DNA of 36,268 nt from positions 1-36,268 of IMG/VR virus record IMGVR_UViG_3300025645_000199; one strand, 5' to 3'. The position numbers were made by a program, and so were the translations under genes. A model generated the notes under the pieces. The model had not been told where the DNA came from, did not search any database, and saw only the letters and a list, made by a program, of their open reading frames with translations. Shown here in pieces: positions 497-27,805 of the stretch (the stretch's first letter is position 1; each line of letters starts with the position of its first letter). This DNA comes from a virus.

Positions 497-520
497 AATA
501 CTTCGCCTTAATGAGGGACG
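496..520 (+). promoter_or_regulatory. Phage promoter-like repeat, copy 1
   Basis: AAATACTTCGCCTTAATGA (496-514) followed by GGGACG and five or six C. This is one of four forward-strand intergenic copies (others at 7672, 7782 and 27787). The 30 nt from 496 differ at one base from those at 7782. The layout (AATAC..., C..TA, A, then GGGA) recalls T7-family promoters with two extra nucleotides in the spacer. It lies upstream of the small membrane protein, PhoH and the tail-tip genes. The polymerase that reads it is inferred to be the 730-aa enzyme. Confidence 0.65.
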
Positions 521-6100: not shown

Positions 6101-6754
6101 CTTGTAGGTGCTGATGGTGTAGATGGTTCAGATGGTATCCCCGGTGCCCCCGGCGCAGATGGTGTAACCACTTATACTTGGGTAAAGTACGCCGATAGTG
6201 GGGATGGTCTAACCGGGTTCTCCAATAGCCCCACTGGAAAGCCTTACATCGGCTTCTCATTTAACAAGACAACAGCTACTGAGAGTAACACAGCTAGCGA
6301 TTATACTTGGTCTTTGATTAAGGGTGCTGATGGTTCGGATGGTGCTAATGGTGTACGTGGTGCAGGTTGGTGGCGTTATGCGGATTCTATAAATGCATCT
6401 ACTTATTATGCCACTTATACACAAGCTAGAGTTGGTTTGGCTTTTACTGTAGCTACTAGCCTGTCCCCTACGGAAGGCGATAGACTTGTAATTGCTTGTA
6501 CAGACATCGCTATTGCTTATATCTATAGCAGTTCATCTTGGATAATTCAAGCAGAATTCATTGATGGTGACTTGCTTGTAGGTGGAACTATCACCTCTGA
6601 CAAGCTGTCTTCAAACCAAATTGATGCTATGTTCGCAACCATTGGCACGTTACAATCAGCTGCATCAGGTGCCCGTCTTGTACTCCAAGATGATAAGATT
6701 GTAGTATACGATTCAAGCAACCAAGTCCGTGTTAAAATCGGTAATCTAGCATAA
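3134..6754 (+). CDS. J-like tip attachment / host-specificity protein with collagen-like modules
   Basis: 1206 aa. N-terminus has a hydrophobic start and a basic QQKQAKKMKAR segment, then IPVIYGKQLAGG (about residues 52-63), typical of lambda J-type tip proteins. The middle is beta-rich with fibronectin-like repeats. Residues about 685-1075 hold three near-identical modules (starts at residues 695, 819, 946), each with GYTPVKG.DYFDG, Gly-X-Y runs such as GADGADGIPGPPG, and a TYTWVKYAD domain. The C-terminus (GARLVLQDDKIVVYD) is the usual closing domain of phage host-specificity proteins. It binds the host receptor in the family; the receptor here is unknown. Followed 17 nt later by the holin. 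Confidence 0.88.
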   Translation: MGIEALIFKAILFAASVAYQQKQAKKMKARMAAESEKHKGYAFTIKNESVPIPVIYGKQLAGGIQVNQKVSNNYITTTELADVVFSDNFNNVTVIGQKNEYLFSQYVICQDGISEVSYLRVNGQDYDYEDSKFNHRIRCHYEGGQADSVSTVNGFDAQAKFTGCAFAGATFKLNRDEGNYSGMPDMEFFVKGRKIRKITNTAGIYTLNSTYEYSNNSSYCLLDYLLNSDFGRGLAVGSVDLESFYNAAQVCDTIVFPSANVGGKINGGDGRKDIPLYECNILLDVSTPFRENIMRIMDTMGMAELTWTTNGKYKLLLEYPTSQVEMDALVPANLHFTEDTIIRNSFEFTFPTAQERLNQCTVTFRNEHEDFKEDSISWPEFNSVPYLDYLIEDNQIPYRTTTSGDGVTDPYHAKALAERNVRNSRSIYTASFTVGKAGLALEPGDFIKITLPEMDLSGETFRVESIKVNSDFTVGIKAYRFDYSSLAWNIADDIAYSNRPTYDFTIEPPTALTFVEDSSDISGFTSGKLSWVAASDINVSEYVVSISTDGGASYRTMGNTKSTGFDIGNILGGTYVFGVQSRSYLGVLSSIVSTATQLVTETPAVFTTVDVYKRDTSTPATPSGGVYDWSIPNMTTEPVGWSKTTPAGTDPVYVSKAFISTSTPTGTTAITGWSSPVIFVQNGEDGSDGIDGIDGYTPVKGIDYFDGIPGTDGADGDSAYVAWLAAGNSGTTTDFLNSLVGADGADGADGIPGPPGADGVTTYTWVKYADSEDGLTGFSNSPAGKPYIGFAFNKTTATESTNPADYTWSLIKGADGIDGYTPVKGIDYFDGIPGADGADGDSAYVAWLAAGNSGTTTDFLNSLVGADGADGADGIPGPPGLDGVTTYTWVKYADSGDGLTGFSNNPAGKPYIGFSFNKTTATESNTASDYTWSLIKGADGSDGADGYTPVKGVDYFDGLPGTNGADGDSAYDAWIAAGNSGTTTDFLNSLVGADGVDGSDGIPGAPGADGVTTYTWVKYADSGDGLTGFSNSPTGKPYIGFSFNKTTATESNTASDYTWSLIKGADGSDGANGVRGAGWWRYADSINASTYYATYTQARVGLAFTVATSLSPTEGDRLVIACTDIAIAYIYSSSSWIIQAEFIDGDLLVGGTITSDKLSSNQIDAMFATIGTLQSAASGARLVLQDDKIVVYDSSNQVRVKIGNLA
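5216..6355 (+). repeat. Three tandem 372-381 bp collagen-like modules
   Basis: GGTTATACACC starts recur at 5216, 5588 and 5969 (372 and 381 nt apart), all in frame. Each encodes a GYTPVKG segment, a Gly-X-Y run, and a spacer with SGTTTDFLNSLVGADG and TTYTWVKYAD. Near-identity at DNA level points to recent duplication or homogenisation. Copy number could change by recombination without breaking the frame. Confidence 0.85.
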
Positions 6755-7179: not shown

Positions 7180-7673
7180 TGAATTTCTCTAAACTATCAC
7201 TATCAAGTCTATTTGGTTTTAAACCAAAAGTTACAAAACAAACAAAAGCTTACCATCTTGCTCGTTACTATCTGGGTCTGCACGAGATTGCAGGTAAAAC
7301 AAAGCATGAAGCTAAGGTTGTTGAATTCTTTAAACTAGTCGGACATGGCTGGGTAAAGGATGATGAGACTTCTTGGTGTGCAGCTTTCGTAGGTGCTATG
7401 CTTGAGAAGAATGATATCAAAAGCACCGGTAAACTGGACGCTCGTTCTTACCTCAAATGGGGTAAAGAAGTAGGGGTTAAAGACGTTAAAGAGGGTGACA
7501 TTGTTGTCTTCTGGCGTGTAAATCCTAACAGCTGGCAGGGCCACGTGGGCTTCTTCGTACGTTACAATGATAACGGTGATATCGTGGTTCTGGGTGGTAA
7601 TCAGTCAGATCAGGTATGTGAGCGTGTGTACGCAAAAGGTCGCCTTTTAGGCTTCCGTAGGTACGAAGAATAA
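7179..7673 (+). CDS. Endolysin, CHAP/NlpC-like (TIGR02594-type) peptidase
   Basis: 164 aa, coupled to the holin. Core motifs: YLGLHEIAG (about residues 31-39), SWCAAFVGAML with candidate nucleophile Cys67, GDIVVFWR (106-113), GHVGFFV with candidate His122, and VVLGGNQSDQV (Asn141). This order matches TIGR02594-type Cys/His amidohydrolases that cut peptidoglycan peptides. There is no signal peptide, so export depends on the holin. The stop codon TAA is itself the first bases of promoter-like copy 2. Confidence 0.85.
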   Translation: MNFSKLSLSSLFGFKPKVTKQTKAYHLARYYLGLHEIAGKTKHEAKVVEFFKLVGHGWVKDDETSWCAAFVGAMLEKNDIKSTGKLDARSYLKWGKEVGVKDVKEGDIVVFWRVNPNSWQGHVGFFVRYNDNGDIVVLGGNQSDQVCERVYAKGRLLGFRRYEE

Positions 7674-7690
7674 ATACTTCGCCCTAATGA
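7672..7690 (+). promoter_or_regulatory. Phage promoter-like repeat, copy 2
   Basis: AAATACTTCGCCCTAATGA, identical over 19 nt to copies 3 and 4, overlapping the endolysin stop. It is followed by TAATACAAG instead of GGGACG, so the initiating G-run of copies 1 and 3 is missing. It lies 91 nt upstream of copy 3, with two hairpins between. Confidence 0.55.
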
Positions 7691-7781: not shown

Positions 7782-7806
7782 AAATACTTCGCCCTAATGA
7801 GGGACG
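7782..7806 (+). promoter_or_regulatory. Phage promoter-like repeat, copy 3 (portal/head operon)
   Basis: AAATACTTCGCCCTAATGA followed by GGGACG and CCCCC. The 30 nt from 7782 match copy 1 except one base. It sits between the lysis terminator and the portal gene (ATG 7903). The remaining leader to 7902 is AT-rich and shows no gene. Position makes it the probable promoter of the head and tail operon. Confidence 0.7.
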
Positions 7807-7902: not shown

Positions 7903-9474
7903 ATGTCCAAGCTAAGAAAACCGTCAAAGGCTGTTAAGCGTTCTGTAGCCGATCCTTCTGACGTATACAACTCACTAAAACCCCTATGGAAGCGTTCTCG
8001 TTCTGTTCTAAACGGTCAAGCTCACACTAAAGCCCATGATGAGTTTATTGATGTTGTAGATTTTAAGAACCTACTACTTCCGTTTTCCCCTTCTATGAAT
8101 CAACAACAGTATGAGTTCTTTAAGGCAGAAGCAGAACTACCAGGACTAACAGCACAATACTGTAAGGTACTTATTAGTGCTCTACTACGTAAACAATCAC
8201 AACTTAATCTCCCTGATGATGTTAGTGATGATGTTTACGACTGGATTGAGAAAGACTTCACTCTTGATGGTCAATCACTATTCAATTTCCTTGATAGTGC
8301 TATCTGGGAAGAGCTACAAACATCACGAGCATGGGTATATGTAGATATGCCTTCTGTTTCTGATACAGAGCTAGAGATGATGACACCGGAAGAGCGGCTA
8401 ATGGTTGCCCCCTATCCTGTTATCCTTCGTGCTGAGAATGTTATCAATGTACAGACTAATGTACACCCGGTTACTCGTCAAAAAACACTAACTCGTATGG
8501 TTACACGCCATGTAGCAGAACGCTATGAAGTAGATAATCCTTGGCACCCAAACTATGTGGATGCTGTTGTAGATCACTTTCTTGATAGTGATGGTTACCT
8601 TGTTATTAACTACTACGAGAAACGTGACCTTACTGGTGAAGTTGAAGTTGTAAATGGTGATGTAACTCAAGAATACCACGACTTGATTGGTGAACAGGAC
8701 TTCGTTCTTGTTAATACCGTATACCCTCAGAAGTTCGGTGTAAGACTAGACCGAATCCCTGCGTGGCCCCTTAATGGTCAAGTTGAACCAGTTGAACCAG
8801 TCTTGATGCCGCTTATCGATCGTGAGATTTCTCTGTATAACAAGATTTCACGCCGTAACCACCTTCTTTATGGTGCTGCAACTTACACTCCAGTCGTACA
8901 ATCTGATATGACTGATGAGGACTTTGAAGAGCTAGTTAACGCTGGCCTCGGTTCCTGGCTACGTGTTCGTAAAGACGAAAGCATCTCTGTCCTAGATACA
9001 CCTACTGGTGCTCTAGTGGACATGGACCGAGCTATTCAAGCTACGGTTGAAGAAATGGCTAAGATGGGTATCCGCATGTTGTCCCCTGAACAGGCGGCTT
9101 CTGGTGTTGCACTAGAAATCCGCAATGCGTCTCAGACTGCACAACTCGGAACTCTCAACGCTAAAATCTCTGGTACAATGGACGAAGTAATTGCGTTCAT
9201 GATTAACTGGAGGTACAATACTGATTACAATGGTAATGACATCGAATTCAAGTTGTCCTCTGACTTCTCACCAATGGTGGGCGGTGAAGGTTCAATGCGT
9301 CTCATTACTGAATGGTATCAGAGTGGTATTATCCCACGTAGTACTTTCCTTAGCGTTGCTAAGTATAATGACTTCCTACCTATGGACTATGACGATGAAC
9401 AAGCGATCGAAGATATCCAAACCGATTCCCTCATCAACCTTACGCCAGATAACGAAGTTATTGTAGAAGAATGA
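7903..9474 (+). CDS. Portal protein (DUF4055-like)
   Basis: 523 aa, ATG after AGAAAGGTAAGCT. N-terminal basic segment, then SMNQQQYEFFKAEAELPG and a helical region with LISALLRKQSQLNLPDD (about residues 88-104). This is characteristic of DUF4055-type portals; the family is usually 450-550 aa. A long acidic C-terminus ends TPDNEVIVEE. It is the first gene after promoter-like copy 3 and is followed by the MuF-containing gene, the normal portal-then-MuF order. Portals form the dodecameric DNA channel at one capsid vertex. Its terminase partner is not in the window. Confidence 0.8.
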   Translation: MSKLRKPSKAVKRSVADPSDVYNSLKPLWKRSRSVLNGQAHTKAHDEFIDVVDFKNLLLPFSPSMNQQQYEFFKAEAELPGLTAQYCKVLISALLRKQSQLNLPDDVSDDVYDWIEKDFTLDGQSLFNFLDSAIWEELQTSRAWVYVDMPSVSDTELEMMTPEERLMVAPYPVILRAENVINVQTNVHPVTRQKTLTRMVTRHVAERYEVDNPWHPNYVDAVVDHFLDSDGYLVINYYEKRDLTGEVEVVNGDVTQEYHDLIGEQDFVLVNTVYPQKFGVRLDRIPAWPLNGQVEPVEPVLMPLIDREISLYNKISRRNHLLYGAATYTPVVQSDMTDEDFEELVNAGLGSWLRVRKDESISVLDTPTGALVDMDRAIQATVEEMAKMGIRMLSPEQAASGVALEIRNASQTAQLGTLNAKISGTMDEVIAFMINWRYNTDYNGNDIEFKLSSDFSPMVGGEGSMRLITEWYQSGIIPRSTFLSVAKYNDFLPMDYDDEQAIEDIQTDSLINLTPDNEVIVEE

Positions 9475-9538: not shown

Positions 9539-12500
9539 ATGTCCACTGTAAATGATAAGATTTACGATTCTATTGTGAATCACATGACTGACGTACGCCT
9601 CTATGAGGAAGGTCAGCAAATCGCACAGCGACGTATTATTCGTCGTCACCGAGAAAAATTAGCAAACCTTTTGAGAAAGGATATTCGTGCTGACGTCAAA
9701 CCAGAAGTCACTCGTTTCGCTAAGGAACTCCGCTCAAACATTTTTAACAGCGTAACAGAGTTCTCCACCTCTCAACTGGATTTCCACTCGGACAACCTAT
9801 ATAAGGAAGTCCGCAGTTTCTATAAAGTGCAAAGGCCACGTACTCGTGAGCTACTTGCCGAAATCACTGGACCTAATATCAAGGGTCCATCTGGACTATC
9901 AACTAATTTGAGTAACATCTCCTCAGGAGAACTAGTTCGTATACAATCTCGTGTTAAATCTGGTTTGGCTGCAGGACGAGCACCTAAAGATATTATTTCT
10001 GATGTTATGAAGACTACAAAGCTCACAGAGAACCAAGCCAAGGCGCTTACTCGTACAGCTATTACTTCTACTCAGACAGCTGCTTTAAATAAAGTTGTAC
10101 AGTCTAATAAAGATATTATTAAAGGGTATATGTTTACTGCTATCCTTGACTCAAGAACAAGCCCTATCTGTTCACACCATAACGGTAAAGTATATGATTT
10201 AGATGATAACCGTTTCCTACCACCGCTCCACTGGAACTGCCGTTCTTCACTTGTTCCTGTTCTAAAGAGCAAGAAAGAGCTAGCTGCAGCAGACTCCGCG
10301 CGGCTTCTTAAACGTCAGGTTGATAAACTTGACTCATCGAAGTTCAACGGTCTTATGCCTGCAAGAGAGTCCTTTGGTGGTTGGCTTAAGCGTCAAGCAT
10401 TCGATGTTCAATCAAAGATGCTTGGTGGAGACGAAGCCGCTAATCTGTTTCGTACAGGTCAGCTAAAGGTAGAACAGTTTGTGAGTGCAACTGGTAAGGT
10501 GTTGTCTATTCAGGCACTACGAGCTAGAGCCTCTGAGATTACAGCAGTATTCCGCCCTCGACAAATTGTCAAAGAGGAAGATATCCGAGTCGGTGTTAAA
10601 AGCCCTAACTCACTACTAAACAACCCGCAGCATAAGAATGATTTACGCCAACTCTTCGTATACGATGCAGATGACTATAATTCCGCTTATGCTCTAACAG
10701 ACTTTAAAGGTACAAGCCTTGTTGGTAAACAAGCATCACGACGCCGGATGAGTAATGAATTCGATGAACGTAACTTCATCACGGATTCTTTCACAGGTGA
10801 AGTGAGAAGTAACCTCGCTTACGAACCAGACTATAACCTGTTCCAGGAACGTATTGACTTTATGCGGAATGCTAAAGACCTTACCCGTGAACAGAAAGAC
10901 TTTATTGAAGACTTTGTTCTTGGTTTGAATGATAAGGTTTCGGTGAACCAACAAACTGTTGCTATTGAAAACCTACGTGTTGTATTCCAACGTTACAGTT
11001 CTACAAAACAACCTTGGGATAACTTTACGTCTGTGATCCGAGCAGAGAATCGCTTCGCTGTTCAGAACGTATCACGGTTACTAGATGTGCGCTCACGTCA
11101 ACGTTCTAAAATCTTTGGTGGATTTGTCTCAGACTCTGAAATACCAAAAGTTCAGATTATGGGTAAATACTACCCTGTTGACAAGCTTGTCTCAGAACAG
11201 CTATCAGATACCCGCTTCGTTAATGACTGGAGAGCAACAACAGGCTCTAAACTGGCCAAGAAAGTTTACTTCTCCGGTCGTGCCCCTCTCAATGCTTACA
11301 CCAAAAAGATTATTGACAAGTACCCTGATCGTGAAAAGTTCATAAGTAATATGCTAGATAAGGTAGTACCTTTCCGGAAAGCTTATCGTGAATTCGTTAA
11401 ACGTTTTGACCGTAATCCCTCGGACGACTGGATAGTCCGTCAGATTGCAAAGTTGAGGGAGTTTGAACGTAAGATCCTTGATATAGAATTCTTGAATGTA
11501 CGCAAGCGCCCAACCTCTGCCATCATGGATGACAAGGTTCTGAATGCCACCACCAAGGCTATGGAAATGGTAGCTGCAGGTAGAGCGACTGACTATGACT
11601 CTCTGGCGATCAATATCGGAAAGATGTTCCACGACACACTGGGCGACTTAAATCCCTTCGCAACTCATACACTTAAAGAATACCACAAAGAAGGCTCAAA
11701 GATTCTTGAGTTTATGCGAGAGCAGAACCTAATCCGAGTAAGCTTCCGTGGTAAGAATCGACGTGGTGTTTGGGATGTTGATACAGGCCGTGCATCAGGT
11801 GGATGGGCAGATACCATCTCTCGTGAGGTTCAGGTTGTTAATAAAGACTTGCTTAAGCTACAAGAAGCCAATAATAGGCTCATTGTTGCTCGGCGCTTCG
11901 GTACTATTGATAACCGAGATAGGCTGTATGTTAAAGCAGGTAACAAAGAGTTCTTTGATGCCCGTGGTAACAAGACAAGTATACCTATCATCTCTGCGGA
12001 TAAATACCCTGACTACGATCCGAAACAGATTGACGCTGACATGGCAAACATGATGAACCATGTTATGAATGTTGACTACGAAGTAGACCCTACTTTCTTT
12101 GACTTTATGGATGATGTTGTACGCTTCCGTGATCCACGTGGTAACGTGAAGAAGTATGATGAACTAAACGAGTTCCGTCATGAAATAATTAACCGAGGTG
12201 AAGCTGGCTATGGTCTTATGGCTGCTGGTCGTTTCCATCGGACAAGGGGTCGTTCCTTCAAGACTGATGTGTTTATTGACTCCCGTGGCCGTGTATACCA
12301 TAGAGGTTACTTGACCCCGACGGGTGGTGAGCTGGTACGTCCCTTCCTTAACTCTGCAAAAGCTGTAGCTGTTAATAATGACGCCATACGGGAACTTAGA
12401 ATCCAAATGGGCGCTCTTATTGGCCCCGGCACAGAAGCCCTGACTCAGAATGGTCGTTTCGAGATCTTCAGACGTAGTGAATCAAGAATACTTGAGCTAG

Positions 12501-13921
12501 GTCGTCTCATGCAAGCAACCACCCAGCGTGACCGCCGTATTAGAGAATTCCTTGAACACCCTCTGATCAGTGGCCTTGAAGGTGCAGAGGTTCCAAAGAT
12601 GGCACGTCTTGCTCTTGAGTATACTCGTATGTATGACCATGTATCTGGTAACTTTGATAACACACGCTTATTGGCCACTTACCGTACTAAGCTAATGATT
12701 GAAAATGACGCCTCTTCAAGCGGTGCTCAGATTATTAGTTTGTCAACTGGTGACCGTCCTATTGCAGAGGCTTCTAACGTTGTTGCTACAACACGTAAGA
12801 ACCGACTTTATGACCTTGTTGCTCAGGATACTGTTAATGACCCCGAGTTCCTAAAGATACCCGCACTACGTAATGCTGGTTTGACTTGGGAGGACTTAGC
12901 TAAGGGTGCAAAAGCGCAGAACATGGTTACATTCTATGGTGCCGGTGAAGCAACAAAGACTGCTAACGTAGCTAACAAACTCGCAGGTATCCTTGGTAAG
13001 AAAGGGTATGCTGCAATAACAAAAGATAACCTTAACGATATCCTTCGTGTTGTTGATGGACGTATTAAGGTTTCAGAAAGATTAGGTGCAGCTTCTGTAG
13101 TGGATGAGCTAAAGGCTTTCCGTTTGGAAATTGTATCAATGGTAAACGGTAACACCCCTGTCGGAAGGCAACTTCTAACTATGGCAAGGGATTTACACCC
13201 AGATGTTGAAGACTTCGTTCTTAAGATTTCTAACTCCCGGATGGGCCTTGTAGGTCCGAAGGACTTTGAGGAAATCTCTAGAGTTATGTCTAAACACCTA
13301 TCACAACGTGCTCCTGTTACAGACCAGTTTATTAACTTCTGGAAAGAGGCAGCTCGTGTGTACGTAAGAGAAACCGAAAAGGTAGACATACCTTGGGTGA
13401 CGTTTGACGGAAAGGTTATGATGCAAAGGTATCGTGGCAAAAGTCAAGCTCGTATAGAGTTTACTGACCCTATTACAGGGCGTAAAATTGCAAACATTTA
13501 TGAAGGTACTATTGCTGATGGGAAACTCCGTGGTAAACACGCTTTTGCTGATGCTAGTATTGGACTAGGTGTTAATGGGAACCACAGCAATGACGCTGTA
13601 ATTGTACGCAGCTTCCACCTTTGGGGGCGTAAGAATAATATTAGTACTGGTACTATTCACGATGCGTTCTTTACAAACATTGCAGATGCACAACGTGCAA
13701 AAGACGCCTTAAGAACCATCTACGCAGATGCTCTTGATGGTGACACAATTCGAAAGACTCTCCAAGCATGGCGCAAAGAGGGTCTGTCAGTGAGTGCATA
13801 TGACGAACTTATTCGTAATGCTACTCGCAGGGGGCTTATTGACCCACCAAACAAACTAACCCGTGCAGACATACTTGAACCTATTAAGGAAGGGTATGAC
13901 TGGTATGGGATCGGGCCATAG
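9539..13921 (+). CDS. MuF minor capsid domain fused to a T7-type single-subunit RNA polymerase (putative virion RNA polymerase)
   Basis: 1460 aa, ATG after CAGGAGAG. The N-terminal quarter is a MuF/SPP1 gp7-type head morphogenesis domain: DSRTSPICSHHNGKVYDL (204-221) then PPLHWNCRSSL. MuF proteins usually end soon after, but here over 1200 residues follow. Visible polymerase motifs in order: DSRGRVYHRGYLTPTGG (914-930; T7 DxxGR); motif A NDASSSGAQ with Asp1057; motif B K1125...Y1133 in KAQNMVTFYGAG, the T7 K631/Y639 spacing; motif C TIHDAFFTNIADA with His1374 and Asp1375. The T7 R627 position is Ala1121 with Lys1122 beside it. Both catalytic Asp are kept, so activity is expected. Residues about 250-850 are unassigned. 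Inference: packaged through the MuF domain and ejected with DNA, as N4 vRNAP is. Confidence 0.85.
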   Translation: MSTVNDKIYDSIVNHMTDVRLYEEGQQIAQRRIIRRHREKLANLLRKDIRADVKPEVTRFAKELRSNIFNSVTEFSTSQLDFHSDNLYKEVRSFYKVQRPRTRELLAEITGPNIKGPSGLSTNLSNISSGELVRIQSRVKSGLAAGRAPKDIISDVMKTTKLTENQAKALTRTAITSTQTAALNKVVQSNKDIIKGYMFTAILDSRTSPICSHHNGKVYDLDDNRFLPPLHWNCRSSLVPVLKSKKELAAADSARLLKRQVDKLDSSKFNGLMPARESFGGWLKRQAFDVQSKMLGGDEAANLFRTGQLKVEQFVSATGKVLSIQALRARASEITAVFRPRQIVKEEDIRVGVKSPNSLLNNPQHKNDLRQLFVYDADDYNSAYALTDFKGTSLVGKQASRRRMSNEFDERNFITDSFTGEVRSNLAYEPDYNLFQERIDFMRNAKDLTREQKDFIEDFVLGLNDKVSVNQQTVAIENLRVVFQRYSSTKQPWDNFTSVIRAENRFAVQNVSRLLDVRSRQRSKIFGGFVSDSEIPKVQIMGKYYPVDKLVSEQLSDTRFVNDWRATTGSKLAKKVYFSGRAPLNAYTKKIIDKYPDREKFISNMLDKVVPFRKAYREFVKRFDRNPSDDWIVRQIAKLREFERKILDIEFLNVRKRPTSAIMDDKVLNATTKAMEMVAAGRATDYDSLAINIGKMFHDTLGDLNPFATHTLKEYHKEGSKILEFMREQNLIRVSFRGKNRRGVWDVDTGRASGGWADTISREVQVVNKDLLKLQEANNRLIVARRFGTIDNRDRLYVKAGNKEFFDARGNKTSIPIISADKYPDYDPKQIDADMANMMNHVMNVDYEVDPTFFDFMDDVVRFRDPRGNVKKYDELNEFRHEIINRGEAGYGLMAAGRFHRTRGRSFKTDVFIDSRGRVYHRGYLTPTGGELVRPFLNSAKAVAVNNDAIRELRIQMGALIGPGTEALTQNGRFEIFRRSESRILELGRLMQATTQRDRRIREFLEHPLISGLEGAEVPKMARLALEYTRMYDHVSGNFDNTRLLATYRTKLMIENDASSSGAQIISLSTGDRPIAEASNVVATTRKNRLYDLVAQDTVNDPEFLKIPALRNAGLTWEDLAKGAKAQNMVTFYGAGEATKTANVANKLAGILGKKGYAAITKDNLNDILRVVDGRIKVSERLGAASVVDELKAFRLEIVSMVNGNTPVGRQLLTMARDLHPDVEDFVLKISNSRMGLVGPKDFEEISRVMSKHLSQRAPVTDQFINFWKEAARVYVRETEKVDIPWVTFDGKVMMQRYRGKSQARIEFTDPITGRKIANIYEGTIADGKLRGKHAFADASIGLGVNGNHSNDAVIVRSFHLWGRKNNISTGTIHDAFFTNIADAQRAKDALRTIYADALDGDTIRKTLQAWRKEGLSVSAYDELIRNATRRGLIDPPNKLTRADILEPIKEGYDWYGIGP

Positions 13922-14010: not shown

Positions 14011-14685
14011 ATGAGTGAAAATCAAGAAAATCAAGTAGAAGAAACTGTAGAAACAACCGAGGAAGTGGTTGAGGAAGTGCAACAAGAAGAAACTACCTCA
14101 GAAGCACCCAAGGATGAACTAGAAGCAGTCATCGAAGAGCGCCTTGCCAAGATGAAAGCTAATATGGACCGTATGTCTAAAGAGCGGGATGAAGCCCTCA
14201 AAATGAAAGCCGAGCTAGAGCAAAAGTCAAAAGAAGACACTATGGCTCGTCTTAAAGAAGAAGGGAAAATTCAAGAAGCTCTTGAGATGGAACTAGCAGA
14301 AGCTAAGGCTAAACTAGAGCTATATCAGAAAGATATCACTTCTCTACGCCGTGATGGTGTGTTAAATGATGCGCTTGCTGGTCTAGAATTCCGTAATGAT
14401 AAGTCTCGTGAGATGGCCCGCCGTGAAATCACTGGTGAGCTTATCCAAGGCGATGATGGGTCATGGTTACACAAGTCCGGAACTTCTATTAAAGATTACA
14501 TTGAGACTTACTCAAAGTCCGATGACAACTCATTCTTGTTCCGTGTTAAATCTAACACAGGAGCAGGTACAAGCACTAATAATGGTGCTCCCGTGACCGA
14601 TGTTAAGAAAAGCATTGGTGAAATGTCAACTCAGGAAATCCTAGCACTTGCCTCTAAAGGTGGTCTAGGAAAAATTGGTTACTAA
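14011..14685 (+). CDS. Head scaffolding protein
   Basis: 224 aa, ATG after GGAAAGGACAAATC. The first 35 residues are almost only Glu, Thr, Val and Gln. Residues about 35-110 form a charged coiled coil (RLAKMKANMDRMSKERDEAL and onward), and the C-terminus is Gly/Ser/Asn-rich. This acidic, helical make-up directly before the major capsid gene is typical of scaffolding proteins, which direct procapsid assembly and then leave. No protease domain is visible. The call rests on composition and position, not on a motif. Confidence 0.8.
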   Translation: MSENQENQVEETVETTEEVVEEVQQEETTSEAPKDELEAVIEERLAKMKANMDRMSKERDEALKMKAELEQKSKEDTMARLKEEGKIQEALEMELAEAKAKLELYQKDITSLRRDGVLNDALAGLEFRNDKSREMARREITGELIQGDDGSWLHKSGTSIKDYIETYSKSDDNSFLFRVKSNTGAGTSTNNGAPVTDVKKSIGEMSTQEILALASKGGLGKIGY

Positions 14686-14717: not shown

Positions 14718-15836
14718 ATGGCTATTACAAATACAGACTTCCAGAATATTGCTCTAGCAATCTCTGCTTACTCCGATGAGGCATACACCTCCGCAAAGAA
14801 ACTAAACGGCACAGGCATTGTTTCCGCTGACCAGCGCATCGACACAAACGGTGAATCCTATGTGGGCCAGTTCCGTTGGTACAAACCACTATCCGCAACA
14901 GTTAACGTTGCATCACTTTCTTCAGCTACTGATGGTACGTACACAAACGTAACAACTGATTACGCTAGCTTCATCAAGACTCTACGTACATTCGGTGCAG
15001 AGCAAGTCAACATGCAAGAAGTAATTTCTAAGCAAGATGGTCTAGCTAAAATTGGTCGTGACTTCGCAGAAGTTCGTGCTCAAGACGAGCATGACGGTCT
15101 TCTCTCAGTACTTAAGGGTGTTTCACACTACGAAGTTGCCCTCGGCGACGCTGGTGGTGCTGGTAACGGTGGTATCATCGACTTCGATACAGATGCTGAT
15201 GCTGCTGCAACAGGCTTCTTCATTGACATCAACGCTCTTGGTCTACACGGCGCTGCTGCTACTGGCGCAGGCGATGCTCGTAAACTCTTCGACAGCACAG
15301 CTATTGGCGCTGCTCGTGGTGAGCGTCTCTTCCGTTCTGTTGGCGCTGCGTTCAAAGACTACGAACCAGACTTCATGTACATCGTAACTTCACCTGAAGT
15401 TCTCGCAGAAATGCGTGCTGCTAACCTTGTGGACGACACAATGGTTGTTGATGGTAACCTTGAATTCTCAACCATCTTCGGTGGTAAATTCCGCATCGTT
15501 CTTACACGTGCTAACCAGATGATTGCTGGTGCAGCTACTGGTGACCTCAATGCAGAATCAAGCAAGTGTACCTTCATCGTTAAGCCCGGCTCTGTTGCCG
15601 CTGCTAACCTTGGCCTACCTGTACCTGTAGAAGTAGACCGTGATGCGGCTTCTTACACAGGCGGTGGCTCCACAAACGTTTGGTACCGCTGGGGCTACGT
15701 CATGCACCCAATGGGTTATGACTGGGCTGGCTCAACTACTGCTTTCGCAACCAATGCCAACTTCGGTACTGGTGCTTCCTGGGCACGTAAGATGGACTCG
15801 CTAAACCTTGGTATTCTACCAATCTTCCACGCCTAA
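14718..15836 (+). CDS. Major capsid protein
   Basis: 372 aa, ATG after AAGGAAAAATAAAA. It lies straight after the scaffold and before the connector genes. Size and an alanine/glycine-rich composition with a long central helix region (FAEVRAQDEHDGLLSVLKG, about residues 116-134) suit an HK97-fold shell protein. The C-terminus contains WYRWGYVMHPMGYDW. Codon use is strongly biased to C-ending codons compared with neighbours, as expected for the most abundant virion protein. The specific capsid family cannot be named with certainty. Confidence 0.85.
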   Translation: MAITNTDFQNIALAISAYSDEAYTSAKKLNGTGIVSADQRIDTNGESYVGQFRWYKPLSATVNVASLSSATDGTYTNVTTDYASFIKTLRTFGAEQVNMQEVISKQDGLAKIGRDFAEVRAQDEHDGLLSVLKGVSHYEVALGDAGGAGNGGIIDFDTDADAAATGFFIDINALGLHGAAATGAGDARKLFDSTAIGAARGERLFRSVGAAFKDYEPDFMYIVTSPEVLAEMRAANLVDDTMVVDGNLEFSTIFGGKFRIVLTRANQMIAGAATGDLNAESSKCTFIVKPGSVAAANLGLPVPVEVDRDAASYTGGGSTNVWYRWGYVMHPMGYDWAGSTTAFATNANFGTGASWARKMDSLNLGILPIFHA

Positions 15837-18923: not shown

Positions 18924-18978
18924 AGCCCTCTGATGGCACTCCAATATGCGGAGATTTGCTGTTAGAGGGCTTTTTTTT
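18924..18978 (+). terminator. Terminator before the tape measure gene
   Basis: AGCCCTCT (18924-18931) pairs with AGAGGGCT (18964-18971), 8 bp perfect with a 32-nt loop, followed by a run of eight T from 18971. It ends only 6 nt before the tape measure ribosome site (GGAGGT 18985-18990), so readthrough is needed to express that gene unless there is another promoter. Confidence 0.75.
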
Positions 18979-18993
18979 ATTAATGGAGGTAAA

Positions 18994-21900
18994 ATGCAAA
19001 AGGGTGTAGAGATTAGGGTCCGCGCGGATGCGACCCAAGCAAAAAGAGAACTTAGGAACCTTGAGAAGAGTGTAGCAAGCATTGAACAAACCACAAATAA
19101 GGTTTCAAAGGCTTTCCGCAACCTAGCTATTGGTATCACTGCCGCCTTTACAGGCGCAGGTCTTACACGGGCTATTACAAGCGCTACAGACTCACTCACC
19201 AACTTAGAGAACAGAATTGCTCTAGTTGTCGGTCAAGGACAAGAACTACAAGGAACGATGCGCAAGCTTTATGGTATTGCTCAACGTTCCCGCATGCCAG
19301 TTAATTCTGCAGCAGAAACATTTAACCGCTTCGGTCTTGCTCTGCAAGGATCTGGCAAATCAATCGACGAGCTACTTATAGCTACGGAAGCTGTTCAACA
19401 AGCAGCTGTCATCTCTGGTGCTTCTGCTGAGTCGGCAAATGCCGCTATTACTCAGCTTGGCCAAGGTCTTGCCTCTGGCGAGCTACGTGGTGAAGAACTA
19501 AACTCGGTACTAGAACAAATGCCACGACTAGCTCGTGCTATTGCGGATGGTATGGGGGTTCCTTTTGGTGAGCTCCGTGCTTTGGCGAAAGATGGTAAGC
19601 TTAATGCTGAATCAGTATTCCAAGCTATTATCAGTACTGCTGGTGAACTTGATAATGAATTCAAAACAATCAAAGCAACAACCTCTGGCCTCGTAACAGT
19701 ACTCAAAGACGAGCTTACACGGGCGCTTGGTGCTATCGACAGGGAACTGGGTTTTAGTGAATCTTTACGTAAGAGAATTATCGCTGCCACAAATTCACTT
19801 CGCTTCTTCGCAGATAATCTTGAAGTTGCTGTTGGTCAAGCCCGAGGAAAACTAAGGCTATTTCTTAATGACCTAGTACTATTCCGCTATGAGGTTAAAG
19901 AAACTCTAAAAGACCTATTCACATCGGACTTCGAGGTTGGCTCTATAACTGACCCTATAGTCCGGCGTATGGAATCTGCTTATAACAGAATCAAGAAAAT
20001 CTTTGATGAGGAAATAATCCCAAAGATTAAGCCTATAGATTTTGACAATGTATTCCAAAATACAGAGGCAGCTCTTGTTAGCATTAAGACGTTTGTTAGT
20101 AATGTTATCGCAGAGTTCACACATCTTTGGAGACGTATTGTTGGCCAGTCCCTCTGGACAGGTATCTTTGATCCTGCACACGAGGAACAAGGCAAGGCGT
20201 CAATCGGTAACACTTCTGCTCTTAGCAGTAATTTGAATGCAGCACTCGATACTATTAGTAAATGGGTGAGTTCAATCGTAACTAAGTTTGATGAAGTATA
20301 CGAAAAAGTAACAAAACGGTGGGACGAGTTTAAAACCTACCTAAGTACGAACCAGCTAACAGTAAGCACTATATCTTTTAATAGTATGTCTACTGCTTGG
20401 GATTCTACTATTAAAGCTATGCAAGACCGTTGGGACTCCTTTGTTAAGGCTACACGTAATCGTGAACAAGAGTCTGATCGTTCTGGGAGTGATATCCCTT
20501 TTGCTGTTAGCTTCTTGAATGCCCTAGATATACTTGATTCTCGATTTAATTCCACAATGGACAATATCGAGTCTCGTTGGAAGGCTTTCAATGATGAAAT
20601 GGCTTTACGTAACCAGGAAGCCAGCCGTATGGGTGGTAAGTCTGACCCACTAGCTTCACTATTCAACGGGCTAGCTGATGCACCGGGTGAGATAAAGGTT
20701 ATCATTGATGCAAATAGTAAACGTATCGTTGAAGATTTTAAAACTGTTCTAAGCGCAGTTGCTGCAACGCCTGTCTTCACAACTGGTAAGATTGTATTCG
20801 AATCTGTGCTAGGTGCAGCTACAGGTGAGAACACAGTAATCAACCAGTTCTTGTCAGATCTTGACGGTAATAAAGAAAAGATTGGTGTTATTCTTGCAGG
20901 TGCTATTTTTGCAGGATTCAAGTTTGGATTCGGAAGAGTTGTAGTTTCTGGCCTTGTAGTGTTGAACGCTAATGAAATTCTTAACAGTACAGAATTCCAA
21001 GATTCCGTTAACTCATTTGGTAAGGGTCTCGGTAAACTACTCTATGATACTATCTCGGGTGATGGTGACATTGGTAAGCAAATTGTTGATGGTATTGCTG
21101 CTTCGTTAGCAAGCCTTGGTGCGGGTGTTGCTGAGGGTCTTTTTGGTTCTGAGTTTGAATCAGAAGTAGCCAACGGAATGGTTGGTGCTCTAACTGCTGG
21201 ACTAATTCTCGTTACTATAAGTAAAGCGGGGAGAGCCGCTCTAATTAGCCTCGGTGGTAAAATGATTACAGCAATGCTTGGTTCTGCTTGGATTGCTCAA
21301 CTTGGCACCTACTTTGCTGCGCAAGCTGCGGCAGTATTTGGCAGCAGTACAATCATTAGTCCAGCACTTAGTGGCGTATTAAATACACTTGGCTTAAAGA
21401 TGGGTGCTATAATACAAGGAGGGCTTGTCGTAGGTTTGGTTGCAGGCCTCGCTCTTGCTGCTTCTTCAGCAATAGAGTATGCAAGTAAAAGCTTATATGA
21501 CCTAGTTGATAGGACGGTAAGAGGTGAATCAAGCGAAGAACAAGGTCTAAGACAAGCACAACGAATTCTAGAACTTGTCAACAAGGGCGAGGAGGGTGTA
21601 CGTCGGGCCGCTTTCTTGGTGGATTCTGGTAAAGTAAGCGCAGAAGCCCTTGCTACTCTAGGTGAAGAAAACTTGGAAAGGCTGCGAACCGCTATTGATG
21701 GTACTGAGGCTACTTGGGTAGATAGTGCTATAAGTCTTGGCTTTTTCAACACCTCAATCGATAACTTCGCTGACGCTGTTAATCTTGCAGCTACAAAGCT
21801 TCGGAGAAATCCAGAATTAGCCGCACCCCTCTATAAGGCCAGCGGTGGTTATATTAGTGGTGCAGGTGGACCCACCGAAGATAAAATCCCAGCGATGCTA

Positions 21901-22932
21901 TCCAACGGCGAGTATGTTATTAAATCTTCTTCTGTTTCTAAGTTTGGTAAAGAATTCCTTGACCGTCTCAACATGGGTATGTTACCTCAGATGTTTAGTA
22001 GTGGTGGTATGGTTACCCCCTACGATGACGAGATTGCAGGCATCTCTTCCGATATCAATCGTATGGAGCGTATAGGTGATCCTACTCTAACCAATGCTAT
22101 TGTTGCTTCTAATGCTGTTCTTGACGACTTACGAGCAAGACGTCGTAGATATATCTCCTCTAGTGGTGAGGTAGACCTGAGTGCTATTGACGGTGGCGGT
22201 GCTTCTGCTTCCTCTGGTAGTGGTGGCAAGGGTAAGGGAAAAGGTAAAAAGAGTGATGCGGTGAAAGCTGCTGAGTCTTATGCGCTGGGTTTCAAGAATG
22301 ACTTCAAATCAGCCCTTTCGAATGCACTAAAGACTGGTGATTTTGGAGAGTTCCTACCGGCACTCTTGGATAGCTTTACTGGGAAAATCATTGACTCTTT
22401 TGTTGATGGCTTTACTGATAGCTTATTCGAAGGTTTAATCGGAAAGGATGGAGAGGGTATCTTCTCTAATATCTTCGGGGGTATTACTTCTTTTGGAGCT
22501 GACCTCGGTAAGGGTGCGCAAGAGGGAATCCTTGAGGGCTTAACGTCATCCGAGCCTTCTGGTGGCTTCGGTAGTCTGTTTAGCGGCCTACTTGGCATGG
22601 ACGGTGGAGGTGGTCTATTTAGCTCAATCTTCGGTTCATCTTTTGGTTCATTCCTTGGATTCTCTTCTGGTGGTGTTGTACCTAATACACCTTTCTCGAA
22701 GTCAGGTTCCGACAGTGTTCCCGCGCTTCTAACTCCAGGTGAGCTTGTTGTTCCTGAAAATAGTTTCAAGGATTTCATGGACTCACAATCAGGTGGAGGT
22801 ACTACTGTAGTAAACCTAAGTGTAACAGGCGATATCTCACGTCAAACACGTACAGAGATTGCCAAGATGATTCCTGAGATTACTGCAGGTGTCAACATGA
22901 CAAATAAAGAAACAAACTTCAGAGGCCGTTAA
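18994..22932 (+). CDS. Tape measure protein
   Basis: 1312 aa from ATG 18994, 3 nt after GGAGGT; the frame is open from 18946 but that start lies inside the terminator. N-terminus VEIRVRADATQAKRELRNLEKSV, then the tape measure domain (GIAQRSRMPVNSAAETFNRFG; ITQLGQGLASGELRGEELNSVLEQMP; about residues 90-200). Central hydrophobic spans near residues 630-850 may insert in the membrane at DNA entry. Two GG-type motifs follow (GPTEDKIPAMLSNGEYVIK and SDSVPALLTPGELVVPE). Length sets tail length; at about 1.5 Å per residue a tail near 200 nm is expected. Confidence 0.92.
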   Translation: MQKGVEIRVRADATQAKRELRNLEKSVASIEQTTNKVSKAFRNLAIGITAAFTGAGLTRAITSATDSLTNLENRIALVVGQGQELQGTMRKLYGIAQRSRMPVNSAAETFNRFGLALQGSGKSIDELLIATEAVQQAAVISGASAESANAAITQLGQGLASGELRGEELNSVLEQMPRLARAIADGMGVPFGELRALAKDGKLNAESVFQAIISTAGELDNEFKTIKATTSGLVTVLKDELTRALGAIDRELGFSESLRKRIIAATNSLRFFADNLEVAVGQARGKLRLFLNDLVLFRYEVKETLKDLFTSDFEVGSITDPIVRRMESAYNRIKKIFDEEIIPKIKPIDFDNVFQNTEAALVSIKTFVSNVIAEFTHLWRRIVGQSLWTGIFDPAHEEQGKASIGNTSALSSNLNAALDTISKWVSSIVTKFDEVYEKVTKRWDEFKTYLSTNQLTVSTISFNSMSTAWDSTIKAMQDRWDSFVKATRNREQESDRSGSDIPFAVSFLNALDILDSRFNSTMDNIESRWKAFNDEMALRNQEASRMGGKSDPLASLFNGLADAPGEIKVIIDANSKRIVEDFKTVLSAVAATPVFTTGKIVFESVLGAATGENTVINQFLSDLDGNKEKIGVILAGAIFAGFKFGFGRVVVSGLVVLNANEILNSTEFQDSVNSFGKGLGKLLYDTISGDGDIGKQIVDGIAASLASLGAGVAEGLFGSEFESEVANGMVGALTAGLILVTISKAGRAALISLGGKMITAMLGSAWIAQLGTYFAAQAAAVFGSSTIISPALSGVLNTLGLKMGAIIQGGLVVGLVAGLALAASSAIEYASKSLYDLVDRTVRGESSEEQGLRQAQRILELVNKGEEGVRRAAFLVDSGKVSAEALATLGEENLERLRTAIDGTEATWVDSAISLGFFNTSIDNFADAVNLAATKLRRNPELAAPLYKASGGYISGAGGPTEDKIPAMLSNGEYVIKSSSVSKFGKEFLDRLNMGMLPQMFSSGGMVTPYDDEIAGISSDINRMERIGDPTLTNAIVASNAVLDDLRARRRRYISSSGEVDLSAIDGGGASASSGSGGKGKGKGKKSDAVKAAESYALGFKNDFKSALSNALKTGDFGEFLPALLDSFTGKIIDSFVDGFTDSLFEGLIGKDGEGIFSNIFGGITSFGADLGKGAQEGILEGLTSSEPSGGFGSLFSGLLGMDGGGGLFSSIFGSSFGSFLGFSSGGVVPNTPFSKSGSDSVPALLTPGELVVPENSFKDFMDSQSGGGTTVVNLSVTGDISRQTRTEIAKMIPEITAGVNMTNKETNFRGR

Positions 22933-22959
22933 GGTCCAGTATGAAAAGTGACTATGGGT

Positions 22960-22986
22960 CACCCCTTCGGGGGTGGCTCTTTTTTA
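22960..22986 (+). terminator. UUCG-loop terminator after the tape measure gene
   Basis: CACCCC-TTCG-GGGGTG (22960-22975), a 6-bp stem with a stabilising UUCG loop, followed by GCTC and six T. It closes the head/tail operon. Confidence 0.9.
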
Positions 22987-23007
22987 TCAAAATTGTGCCT
23001 AAAAAAG

Positions 23008-23035
23008 TGAGAAAATCAAGGCATCTATAATGATA
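23008..23035 (+). promoter_or_regulatory. TATAATGATA element, copy A (early-type promoter candidate)
   Basis: 28-nt element beginning TGAGAAAA and ending GCATCTATAATGATA, matching copy B (24587-24614) at 24 of 28 positions. It contains TATAAT (23026-23031) but no good -35 hexamer 16-18 nt upstream and no extended -10 TGn. It lies just after the tape measure terminator and before the small-gene cluster. Reader unknown: host sigma factor with an activator, or a phage polymerase. Confidence 0.6.
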
Positions 23036-23082
23036 GAATAAAATCTTTGCAGGACAAACCTCAACAAGAAATGGAAATCACT

Positions 23083-23370
23083 ATGTTTAAATTCTACCGT
23101 GGTACTACCTCACACGAAGCTAACGCCTTGAGCGATGGCACACAACACCGTGACGTTACACACTGGACTGACTCACTTGAGAAAGCTCAGATGTACTCCA
23201 AAGGTGCTGTTATTGAAATTGAGCTTGACGAGCTCCCCCCTCACTTTAATGCTTACAGAAGTATTGCCCATGGCGATGCTGTACATGGAAACATTCGCCA
23301 GTGGGTCATCTCTCGTGAATTCTACGAGAATAGGCTTTTCAACTGGGTTGAAGAAACACGTATCCACTAA
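23083..23370 (+). CDS. Small protein with weak ADP-ribosyltransferase-like pattern
   Basis: 95 aa from ATG 23083 (GGAAA just upstream); ATG 23071 and TTG 23047 are in-frame alternatives. It is the first gene after promoter candidate A. Pattern FYRGTTS at the start, then HWTDSLEKAQMYSKGAVIEIELDEL, resembles small ART-fold proteins in which an Arg or His begins a strand, an A..Y helix follows and a V.E.EL strand comes next. The catalytic Glu cannot be placed surely. If correct it could modify a host protein early in infection. Otherwise hypothetical. Confidence 0.65.
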   Translation: MFKFYRGTTSHEANALSDGTQHRDVTHWTDSLEKAQMYSKGAVIEIELDELPPHFNAYRSIAHGDAVHGNIRQWVISREFYENRLFNWVEETRIH

Positions 23371-23380
23371 GGAGACTGAA

Positions 23381-24586: not shown

Positions 24587-24614
24587 TGAGAAAACTAGCG
24601 CATCTATAATGATA
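24587..24614 (+). promoter_or_regulatory. TATAATGATA element, copy B (early-type promoter candidate)
   Basis: Second copy of the 28-nt element at 23008: TGAGAAAA...GCATCTATAATGATA with TATAAT at 24605-24610. It lies 21 nt before the next ATG (24636). The conserved 5' TGAGAAAA block, about 10 nt upstream of TATAAT, is too close for a sigma70 -35. Confidence 0.6.
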
Positions 24615-25408: not shown

Positions 25409-27601
25409 ATGCCAAAAACATCAATAGAACTACTAGTAGAAGATATAAAACAAAGACAGATCTTCTTAATGACATCTGACGGATCAAAGCCAGATAAGAG
25501 GAATAAATCGTGGATGCTATGGGACAAGGATCCTCAGAAAATAATCGAGCTAACTTATGGGCATATCCTTCTTGGCATCGAGAGGAAGTCTACCCTACTA
25601 AACATCGTAACTTCAGTTGGCGCTTGTCTCAATAGGCGTCTTCGTTTAAAAGTAGATGAGATAGCAGCAACACACCTCGGGTGGTTTGTACTGATAAGTT
25701 ACTTCGAGACAGGTATACTAGACTACTTCTCTAAACACCTACGTATAAAAGGTCGGCTAAGCAAGTACCCAACTTACCAAGTAAAAGTAACAAACCTAGA
25801 TGCTCTGAATTCTGTTATGGATCTGATCGATAACAATTCAAGCGAGTTGTTCCCAGTAAGTATCCAACCAGAACCTTGGGGTGAAGGCTTCGTACACAAG
25901 GAAACAGGAAGACCTCTAATTAAGAGTCCACACGAAGACGCTGTAGCAATGGCCAAAGAGTTGGACTTGTCTTATATTAAGGAAACACTTAACAAACTAC
26001 AGTCAACCGCTTGGCGTATTAATAAGCCCGTATTCTCTGCTTTTGAAGAGTGTGTCGGTTCAGCTAGTAATCCTTTTAAGTTCTCTAAGGAGATTGACCC
26101 AGAGAAGAGAGCATCCCTGTTAATCGAAATCGAAGCTATTCGTAGGCTAGCTACAAGGAACATTGACAATGCCTTCTATCATCTATACAACTTGGATTTC
26201 CGTGGACGAATTTACCCCAATACAGCTTTCCTTCACGAACAATCAAGCGATAACGCAAAGGGTCTTCTGATACTGGATGAACCAGTTTGTCTTGGTGAAG
26301 AAGGATACTATTGGTTATCTGTTCACACAGCTAATATGTGGGGTAATGACAAAGTATCTCTAGACGATCGTGCTCAGTGGGTACAAGACAACATGGATGA
26401 TATCTTGTTGTATGCTGAAGACCCTATGCAGTATGTAGGGTGGATGGATGCAGATAAACCATTCTGCTTCTTAGCTTGTTGTTATGAGTGTTCTCTAATT
26501 TCTAACTGGCATGGCGATGGCTATGCAACAGAGGATTTCCCAAGTTGCCTACCTGTCTATATCGATGGTTCCAACAACGGAGTTCAACATCTTGTTGCCA
26601 TGTCCAAAGATGAGTATATTGCACCACTAGTTAACTTGGTACCACAGGATCTACCCGGTGATGTGTACATGTTTATAGCAGAACACACACAGAAAAATGT
26701 AAAGAGAGACTTGGAGAAAATGGACCCCGCTGTAGTGGCGAGGTTCGATGATATACACCCGCAACTCGTCTTATTGAGGCAAGGTGTTGGTAAGTATTCA
26801 CCCGGTACAGAGTTATACCGGAATGCCATGCAGAGACTTCGTGAGTTCAGTAACTCTGTGTATGACATCAAGAAGCAACTTGGTCCAGTATTCTGGTCTA
26901 AAGTAAAAAACAAGAAGACATGGAGAAAGACTGTTAAACGCCCGGTCATGACTCTCGGTTATGGCGGAACTAAGTTCGGCATGGTTGATATGGTTGATGG
27001 TGATACCCGAGACCTGAGTGAGTATCTACGAGATAAGGATAAGTCTTGGTCCGCTTACCTAGGTCACCTTATCTTCGACACCTGCTACGAGAAACTTGAG
27101 GGCCCGGCTAGAATGCTAAGGATGTTTGAGGCTCTGGCAGAACGTGAGAATAACAGGGATACACCAATCACATTTGTGCAAAATGTAACAAACTTTCCCT
27201 TCGTTCATTCTTACAAAGAAGCTGCAATAAAGAGAGTAAAACTTTATCACGGTGACAACATACTGGATCTGCACATCTCTGTTTGGAAAGAGTCTACACT
27301 GAAGAAGTCTAAACAGAAGACAGGTGCTGCTCCTAATATTGTTCATAGTGTTGACGCCGTTCACCTAAGTATGTATGTACATGATACAGACTACCAGACA
27401 ACAGTGGTTCATGACTCCTTCGGTTGTCACGCAGGTAACATGAGTAAAGCCTTTATCGACGTGCGTAATAAGTTTGTAGAACTATATGACCTAGACCCAC
27501 TAGAGCATATCATGTCTCAAATGGAATCCCTAGACCTAATCCCCGAGAAAGGAAACCTAGATGTCTCAGAAATACTCAGTTCAGACTTTGCGTTTGCATG
27601 A
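25409..27601 (+). CDS. T7-like DNA-directed RNA polymerase
   Basis: 730 aa (T7 enzyme: 883), ATG after TGGAGTAGCA. All key single-subunit RNA polymerase elements are present: NLDFRGRIYPN with Asp263 and Arg267 (DxxGR); motif A YIDGSNNGVQHL with Asp386; motif B with Arg506, Lys510 and Tyr518 (T7 R627/K631/Y639 spacing), then YGGTKFGM; APNIVHSVDAVHL; motif C VVHDSFGCHAG with His668 and Asp669. It transcribes phage genes from phage-specific promoters; the AAATACTTCGCC repeats are the natural candidates. The next gene overlaps its 3' end by 41 nt. The shorter N-terminus could change promoter recognition. Confidence 0.95.
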   Translation: MPKTSIELLVEDIKQRQIFLMTSDGSKPDKRNKSWMLWDKDPQKIIELTYGHILLGIERKSTLLNIVTSVGACLNRRLRLKVDEIAATHLGWFVLISYFETGILDYFSKHLRIKGRLSKYPTYQVKVTNLDALNSVMDLIDNNSSELFPVSIQPEPWGEGFVHKETGRPLIKSPHEDAVAMAKELDLSYIKETLNKLQSTAWRINKPVFSAFEECVGSASNPFKFSKEIDPEKRASLLIEIEAIRRLATRNIDNAFYHLYNLDFRGRIYPNTAFLHEQSSDNAKGLLILDEPVCLGEEGYYWLSVHTANMWGNDKVSLDDRAQWVQDNMDDILLYAEDPMQYVGWMDADKPFCFLACCYECSLISNWHGDGYATEDFPSCLPVYIDGSNNGVQHLVAMSKDEYIAPLVNLVPQDLPGDVYMFIAEHTQKNVKRDLEKMDPAVVARFDDIHPQLVLLRQGVGKYSPGTELYRNAMQRLREFSNSVYDIKKQLGPVFWSKVKNKKTWRKTVKRPVMTLGYGGTKFGMVDMVDGDTRDLSEYLRDKDKSWSAYLGHLIFDTCYEKLEGPARMLRMFEALAERENNRDTPITFVQNVTNFPFVHSYKEAAIKRVKLYHGDNILDLHISVWKESTLKKSKQKTGAAPNIVHSVDAVHLSMYVHDTDYQTTVVHDSFGCHAGNMSKAFIDVRNKFVELYDLDPLEHIMSQMESLDLIPEKGNLDVSEILSSDFAFA

Positions 27602-27786: not shown

Positions 27787-27805
27787 AAATACTTCGCCCT
27801 AATGA
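27787..27805 (+). promoter_or_regulatory. Phage promoter-like repeat, copy 4 (SSB/replication genes)
   Basis: AAATACTTCGCCCTAATGA, identical over 19 nt to copies 2 and 3, followed by CCAAAAGG rather than GGGACG. It lies 61 nt upstream of the SSB start, between the RNA polymerase block and the replication genes. Lack of the G-run suggests a weaker promoter class. Confidence 0.6.

Follow-up and report, generated by a model that had tools for sequence, protein, structure and literature searches.

Bacteriophages that package an RNA polymerase (RNAP) in the virion are known in a few lineages, namely N4, the phiKZ-like and crAss-like phages, and P23-45. In N4 (Schitoviridae), an RNAP of the T7 superfamily lies within a large structural polypeptide, gp50, and this virion RNAP acts first, followed by RNAPII for the later genes (PMC4496689). 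In the long-tailed Thermus siphophage P23-45, the virion RNAP (gp96) is likewise joined to a structural protein, and the phage has in addition a separate non-virion RNAP and two classes of promoter motif (PMC10770324). Minor head proteins with a MuF domain, furthermore, can carry an enzymatic domain that is thought to be delivered into the host, as in MuF-effector fusions and polyvalent proteins; the partners described in the accessible part of that work are PBECR, 2H, RelA/SpoT and PRTase, with no MuF–RNAP fusion among them there (PMC5512222). Here we describe such a fusion in a 36,268-nucleotide stretch of viral DNA (IMG/VR virus record IMGVR_UViG_3300025645_000199, positions 1 to 36,268; hereafter the window), where one open reading frame (ORF) joins a MuF head protein to a T7-type RNAP. 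Our reading, to which we give a probability of roughly 78%, is that this protein is a virion RNAP, i.e., a MuF minor head protein with a complete T7-type polymerase that would be packaged, injected and used to transcribe the early genes, after which a second phage RNAP would transcribe the late genes. We found no report in the literature of a MuF domain joined to a virion or T7-like RNAP, the one paper retrieved for MuF and virion RNAPs dealing with the two separately; this is weak evidence of absence given that subscription journals were thinly covered.

The fusion of MuF to polymerase within one ORF is real and was confirmed: the 1460-aa chain is unbroken, with no internal stop codon (Table 1). 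In its head part, Pfam PF04233 matches residues 135–238 (E=2.5e-15, 57.6 bits against a curated cut-off of 29.6) and NCBIfam TIGR01641 (SPP1 gp7 minor capsid) matches residues 136–241 (E=4.7e-19, 68.8 bits against a cut-off of 39.65), the motif reading C211...PP228-229.HWNCR235, and residues 1–333 match PHROG 241 “head morphogenesis” (E=1.6e-48). In the polymerase part, PF00940 matches residues 1046–1407 (E=1e-6, 28.3 bits against a curated cut-off of 22) and PHROG 414 matches residues 911–1148 (E=8.7e-25); the Pfam scan of the fusion found no domain besides MuF and RNA_pol. The original prediction, made from the sequence alone, had claimed a single uninterrupted 1460-codon frame, a MuF/SPP1 gp7 module of the form C..H...PP.HWNCR, and the polymerase landmarks DSRGR (914–918), D1057, K1125, Y1133 and H1374-D1375, and all of these were borne out. 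It was also right that a polymerase in the slot between the portal and scaffold genes, which is where MuF/SPP1 gp7 genes sit, is unlike the gene order of T7 or N4. What it had overlooked was a second RNAP, two classes of promoter-like motif, the same fusion in deposited phage genomes, and that virion RNAPs fused to structural proteins were already known (N4; P23-45, PMC10770324).

An AlphaFold2 model of residues 263–1460, built with 43 aligned sequences (mean predicted local distance difference test, pLDDT, 78; predicted template modelling score, pTM, 0.68) and also searched by Foldseek, is most similar to T7 RNAP (8dh5_M; Z 31.8, root-mean-square deviation 3.5 Å, 514 residues), then to mitochondrial RNAPs (Z up to 28.3), and more weakly to the N4 virion RNAP (2po4; Z 17.7). 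Since the T7 RNAP match covers model residues 286–1197, corresponding to about 548–1459 of the protein, the N-terminal domain of the polymerase is included. Residues D914, R918, D1057, K1125, Y1133, H1374 and D1375 are invariant among 47 full-length homologues from two clades, as are the MuF residues C211, H231, C234 and R235; because of this invariance and of the predicted T7 RNAP fold, the polymerase motifs are considered to go beyond chance resemblance. A check of the fold had been set beforehand, and in it the model superposes on T7 RNAP over the whole polymerase domain with the named catalytic residues invariant. As for the head part, a model of residues 1–560 resembles predicted structures of phage minor capsid or head morphogenesis proteins, and its matches in the PDB are middling, the best (Z 9.5) being a helical stalk. 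In Pelagibacter phage Kolga, a 633-aa protein has the same head part (residues 3–345; E=7e-41, 30% identity) but lacks the polymerase, one T7-type RNAP being encoded separately elsewhere in the genome, and we therefore place the joint near residue 345. Sequence and predicted fold together strongly support a head protein joined to a complete T7-type RNAP.

In terms of the described systems, the fusion shares with N4 gp50 the placement of a T7-superfamily RNAP within a structural polypeptide and a match in fold, but gp50 is a protein of about 3,500 residues and three domains from a podovirus, has no MuF domain and is served by hairpin promoters. Membership in the N4 type was considered and rejected: the fusion has 1460 residues and belongs to a phage with a 1328-aa tape measure protein, it is nearer in fold to T7 and mitochondrial RNAPs than to N4, and it contains no zincin HExxH motif, while the accessible part of PMC5512222 describes N4-type virion RNAPs as always accompanied by a zincin peptidase domain. 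An hhalign comparison of the fusion with a single N4 mini-vRNAP sequence gave nothing usable. The P23-45 gp96 differs in another way: its polymerase is of the two-barrel type, akin to cellular RNAP, and its fusion partner is the tape measure protein, in place of a T7-type enzyme with MuF (PMC10770324). The logic proposed here would be that of N4 and P23-45 carried out with different parts.

The phages carrying this fusion form a large, mostly uncultured, long-tailed group. When the fusion was searched by tblastn against 50,697 phage records, full-length relatives were hit only in DSS3_VP1 and DSS3_PM1 (Naomviridae; QGH74596 and QGH74736), which have an orthologue of 58% identity, the same gene order, a second RNAP and the early motif described below, and in EBPR siphovirus 1 (gp47 and gp49; 31%), where an element that resembles a group I intron and carries an HNH gene interrupts the same fusion exactly in motif B. 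In IMG/VR, at least 571 contigs encode relatives (571 of the 598 candidate stretches among the matches listed), and the EBPR protein as query retrieved 48 loci with the same fusion, which constitute a second clade about 31% identical to the first. The polymerase is not apparent from annotation, as relatives in the databases go by the names “minor head protein-like protein”, “head protein” or “head morphogenesis”; in the DSS3_VP1 and DSS3_PM1 records only the head protein is annotated, leaving the polymerase half unnamed, and in EBPR siphovirus 1 the pieces are called head protein, HNH endonuclease and hypothetical protein. Among 84,980 bacterial and archaeal species genomes, only two contigs in one metagenome-assembled genome were matched, by which a prophage origin was rejected; as matches in cellular genomes are almost nil, the phages look lytic.

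PBS1 and R1-37 are phages with both uracil-containing DNA (dU) and virion RNAPs, and dU genomes might therefore require an RNAP supplied by the phage. DSS3_VP1 and DSS3_PM1 also have dU genomes (PMC12697855), and in DSS3_VP1 a dCMP/dCTP deaminase belongs to the dU-DNA pathway. A link between the fusion and uracil-DNA was nonetheless rejected, because this deaminase family was found in just 3 of the 17 records checked, a test that is limited by the fragmentary state of the records; no member of it turned up among those proteins of the window that were scanned.

A second, free T7-type RNAP is encoded downstream of the tape measure gene of the window; DSS3_VP1 has such a gene too, as do all ten of the contigs above 59 kb that were tested, representing both clades. 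A profile comparison of the fusion with this second RNAP left motif B misaligned. Repeats found between the genes of the window fall into two classes. The late-class motif L, AAATACTTCGCCCTAATGA, looks like a T7-class promoter. Its four copies, each of them on the + strand, precede the tail and portal operons or directly follow the gene for the second RNAP. The versions in other phages, at comparable places, are AAATACTGCCGCCTAATGA in G013, AATAGGGTGCGTTAAAGAGGGGGA in DSS3_VP1 and DSS3_PM1, AATACCTGACCTTAAAG in G009 and CCCGTTAAATTAACCC in the EBPR clade; in four phages motif L lies before the portal or structural genes and after the second RNAP, with a sequence that differs from phage to phage.

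The early-class motif E, in contrast, is nearly constant among phages whose L motifs differ. It is a single block, AAAAAGTGAGAAAA-N5-GCATCTATAATGA, with the near-invariant form TGAGAAAAN5GCATCTATAATGA, and in the window it lies past the terminator of the tape measure gene and ahead of the genes leading to the second RNAP. The exact pattern occurs at 80 or more loci in IMG/VR. Among the matches listed, every one of the 28 loci with multiple copies encodes Naom-type proteins, as do 34 loci with a single copy, and the 18 others have one copy each, as by chance; among the phage records, a significant E-value was obtained only for DSS3_VP1 and DSS3_PM1, and in DSS3_VP1 motif E stands at 35796 and 36243. 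The P23-45 study argued likewise, in that a motif occurs where the fused RNAP occurs (PMC10770324). The EBPR clade has an early block of different sequence in the identical register, tGCGnAAA-N4-ggtATCTTATATGAA, which was counted 22 times, against an expectation of 0.12, in eight of eight large contigs and always on the gene strand. When the TG.G.AAA element is tried at different offsets, its score reaches 4.6 of 6 where the first clade has its register, and no other offset tested exceeds 2.8. The EBPR-clade motif ATCTTATATGAA is also found outside the region before the second RNAP (contigs G016, G017, G018 and G020–G024; e.g., G022 at 19079 and 23932), and these extra copies possibly mark other early genes.

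In 52% of the motif E copies from relatives (n=106), a perfect stem of at least five pairs starts directly after TATAAT, compared with 0.4% when the sequences are shuffled and 13% when the 3' sides are swapped among copies. The stem sequences vary (GATAC, GATATA, GAACT, GATAAA), and the inverted repeat of 4–7 bp, present in about half of the copies (e.g., L202, L186, L189), is covarying. In the transcript, a stem at this place would be located at the 5' end or close to it, and it is possibly a 5' RNA hairpin or a part of the promoter; being downstream of TATAAT, it would differ from the arrangement in N4, where the promoter hairpin is upstream of the start (PMC4496689). The two motif E copies of the window showed no such stem by eye.

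These elements can be arranged as follows. During assembly, the MuF part would bring the polymerase to a place in the head close to the portal, and when the DNA leaves by the long tail, a few copies of the fusion would go with it. Once inside the cell, the fusion would recognise the conserved early motif, TGAGAAAA-N5-GCATCTATAATGA in the window, and transcribe the early genes, including an operon leading up to the gene for the second RNAP. The second RNAP would in turn recognise the phage-specific T7-like motifs and transcribe the late region with its portal/MuF-RNAP operon. Early transcription would thus be independent of the host RNAP. The presence of the fusion in the virion and its activity are inferred. 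The second RNAP, and motif E with its place upstream of the early genes in contigs of this type of phage, independently support the idea of injection and of a start of transcription by the fusion. Several points weigh against it: residues 346–547 are without an assigned fold; each RNAP is paired with its motif solely by location and conservation; a folded polymerase would have to traverse the long tail tube, which is plausible by analogy with N4 and P23-45; and motif E contains TATAAT, the consensus of the sigma70 -10 element, which a host holoenzyme, or one helped by the phage, may read.

This last point leads to the alternative that survives best, though we regard it as unlikely: the fusion is a working virion RNAP, but the host RNAP reads the early genes at the TATAAT motif, the fusion serving another step instead, such as pulling in the genome by transcription from other sites or a late step of assembly. 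The -10 hexamer is exact, and phages are generally known to use the host RNAP for their early genes. No sigma70 -35 element was found at motif E, however, the best match (2.2 of 6) being below the shuffled mean of 3.0, and a sigma70 promoter scan did not call the site. Indeed, GTGAGAAAA and GCATC, invariant or nearly so, occupy what would be the sigma70 spacer, and motif E is tied to this type of phage with its register kept in a clade of only 31% identity.

Much less probable is that the polymerase domain is cleaved off or is active only late in the cell, the link to MuF merely coupling its expression to that of the head genes with no delivery involved. Head proteins can be processed, as is generally known, but both clades retain the fusion as a single chain, and the second RNAP, which has a late-type motif of its own, already fills the late role. 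It is more doubtful still that the polymerase module is dead and retained as a structural or DNA-binding part of the head. The sequence is certainly divergent from T7 RNAP (phmmer E about 0.6), but every catalytic residue tested is invariant, and group I introns interrupt the gene in motifs B and C. The HNH-bearing element of EBPR siphovirus 1 falls between V1130 and T1131 and matches the Rfam group I intron with 40.5 bits, below the cut-off of 50. Eight related loci contain 15 group I introns that score above this threshold, and several sit at motif B or right after D1375. Mobile introns prefer conserved sites of essential, working enzymes, and their positions in motifs B and C therefore argue for a working polymerase. 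Finally, an artefact of assembly or annotation can be dismissed, even if the window is an incomplete metagenomic contig, because the isolate genomes of DSS3_VP1 and DSS3_PM1, along with dozens of independent contigs, carry the same single ORF.

With more reserve than for the virion RNAP itself, we lean towards a broader proposal, namely that the fusion is a separately evolved machine for virion transcription, in which MuF and a polymerase of the T7/mitochondrial type, distinct from the N4 lineage, would act with their own strongly conserved non-sigma early promoter in two old clades of long-tailed phages and make early transcription free of the host RNAP.

Some other features of these phages are also recorded here. 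The second RNAP gene of the intron-bearing phages appears to be fragmented as well (G016, G018, G020, G021 and G024). In-frame inserts of about 50–140 residues recur in the fusion at the same positions, namely after the equivalents of residues 1036 and 1281 in L144, L158 and L165 and after 252 in L086; none of them has a Pfam match above cut-off, and one resembles a ParB-type domain by eye. S-adenosylmethionine lyase is a known type of anti-restriction protein, and the window has a weak match to it at 33728–34138 (26.1 bits against a cut-off of 28). A pyrimidine dimer DNA glycosylase domain above cut-off (29041–29508) adjoins a nucleoside deoxyribosyltransferase-like gene (28619–29041), a pentapeptide-repeat protein (35400–36029) is built of 15-base tandem units, and collagen-like repeats are found in the tail tip protein (3134–6754) and in a separate small protein (33188–33580).

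Table 1. Coordinates of the features of the window and of related records
Feature	Position	Strand	Remarks
Motif L AATACTTCGCCTTAATGA	497..514	+	T7-like promoter motif
Motif L AATACTTCGCCCTAATGA	7673..7690	+	upstream of portal and MuF-RNAP
Motif L AATACTTCGCCCTAATGA(GGGA)	7783..7800	+	upstream of portal and MuF-RNAP
Portal protein	7903..9474	+	PHROG 145; directly upstream of fusion
MuF-RNAP fusion	9539..13921	+	1460 aa, single ORF
Head-morphogenesis part, residues 1-345, including MuF/SPP1 gp7 domain	9539..10573	+	homologous to non-fused Kolga head protein
MuF/SPP1 gp7 domain, residues 135-241	9941-10261	+	profile matches
Linker segment from head part to T7-like fold, residues 346-547	10574..11179	+	conserved
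Predicted single-subunit RNAP fold, residues 548-1459	11180..13915	+	T7 and mitochondrial RNAP align with AlphaFold2 model residues 286-1197
T/DxxGR motif, DSRGR 914-918	12278..12292	+	D and R invariant; homologue alignment
Motif A, D1057 in DASSSGAQ	12707..12730	+	homologue alignment
Motif B, K1125 to Y1133-G1134	12911..12940	+	group I introns here in relatives (V1130/T1131)
Motif C, H1374-D1375	13658..13663	+	group I introns right after D1375 in relatives
Head scaffolding protein	14011..14685	+	PHROG 206
Major head protein	14718..15836	+	PHROG 247
Tape measure protein	18946..22932	+	TMP_3, 1328 aa; long-tailed phage
Terminator-like stem-loop and T run	22956..22979	+	after tape measure gene, just before first motif E
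Motif E TGAGAAAATCAAGGCATCTATAAT	23008..23031	+	promoter-like
Motif E TGAGAAAACTAGCGCATCTATAAT	24587..24610	+	promoter-like; followed by AGGAG and ATG
Second, free T7-type RNAP	25409..27601	+	730 aa; PF00940 E=2e-76, PHROG 414 E=1e-127
Motif L AATACTTCGCCCTAATGA	27788..27805	+	just after second RNAP gene
Intron-like element, EBPR siphovirus 1 (L045)	22994-23913		
Group I introns, L122, L130, L135, L139, L141, L161, L164, L167			located in motifs B and C; a gene often has several
dCMP/dCTP deaminase family, MN602266	47637-48089		some members only
dCMP/dCTP deaminase family, G009	44200-44529		some members only
dCMP/dCTP deaminase family, G023	58517-58828		some members only

In conclusion, the fusion is real and widespread and extends the kind of RNAP carried in virions, its delivery and activity being inferred from sequence. 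At least 571 environmental contigs and two cultured Roseobacter phages link a head protein to an RNA polymerase of the simplest kind, and the MuF slot thereby gains a new cargo. Labels such as “minor head protein” in the databases hide polymerases. The fusion also provides a new RNA polymerase of small size, whose candidate promoter, about 25 bases long, does not resemble that of T7, and with its 1,460 residues it is a system for studying how a polymerase would be packaged in folded form and would pass a long tail.

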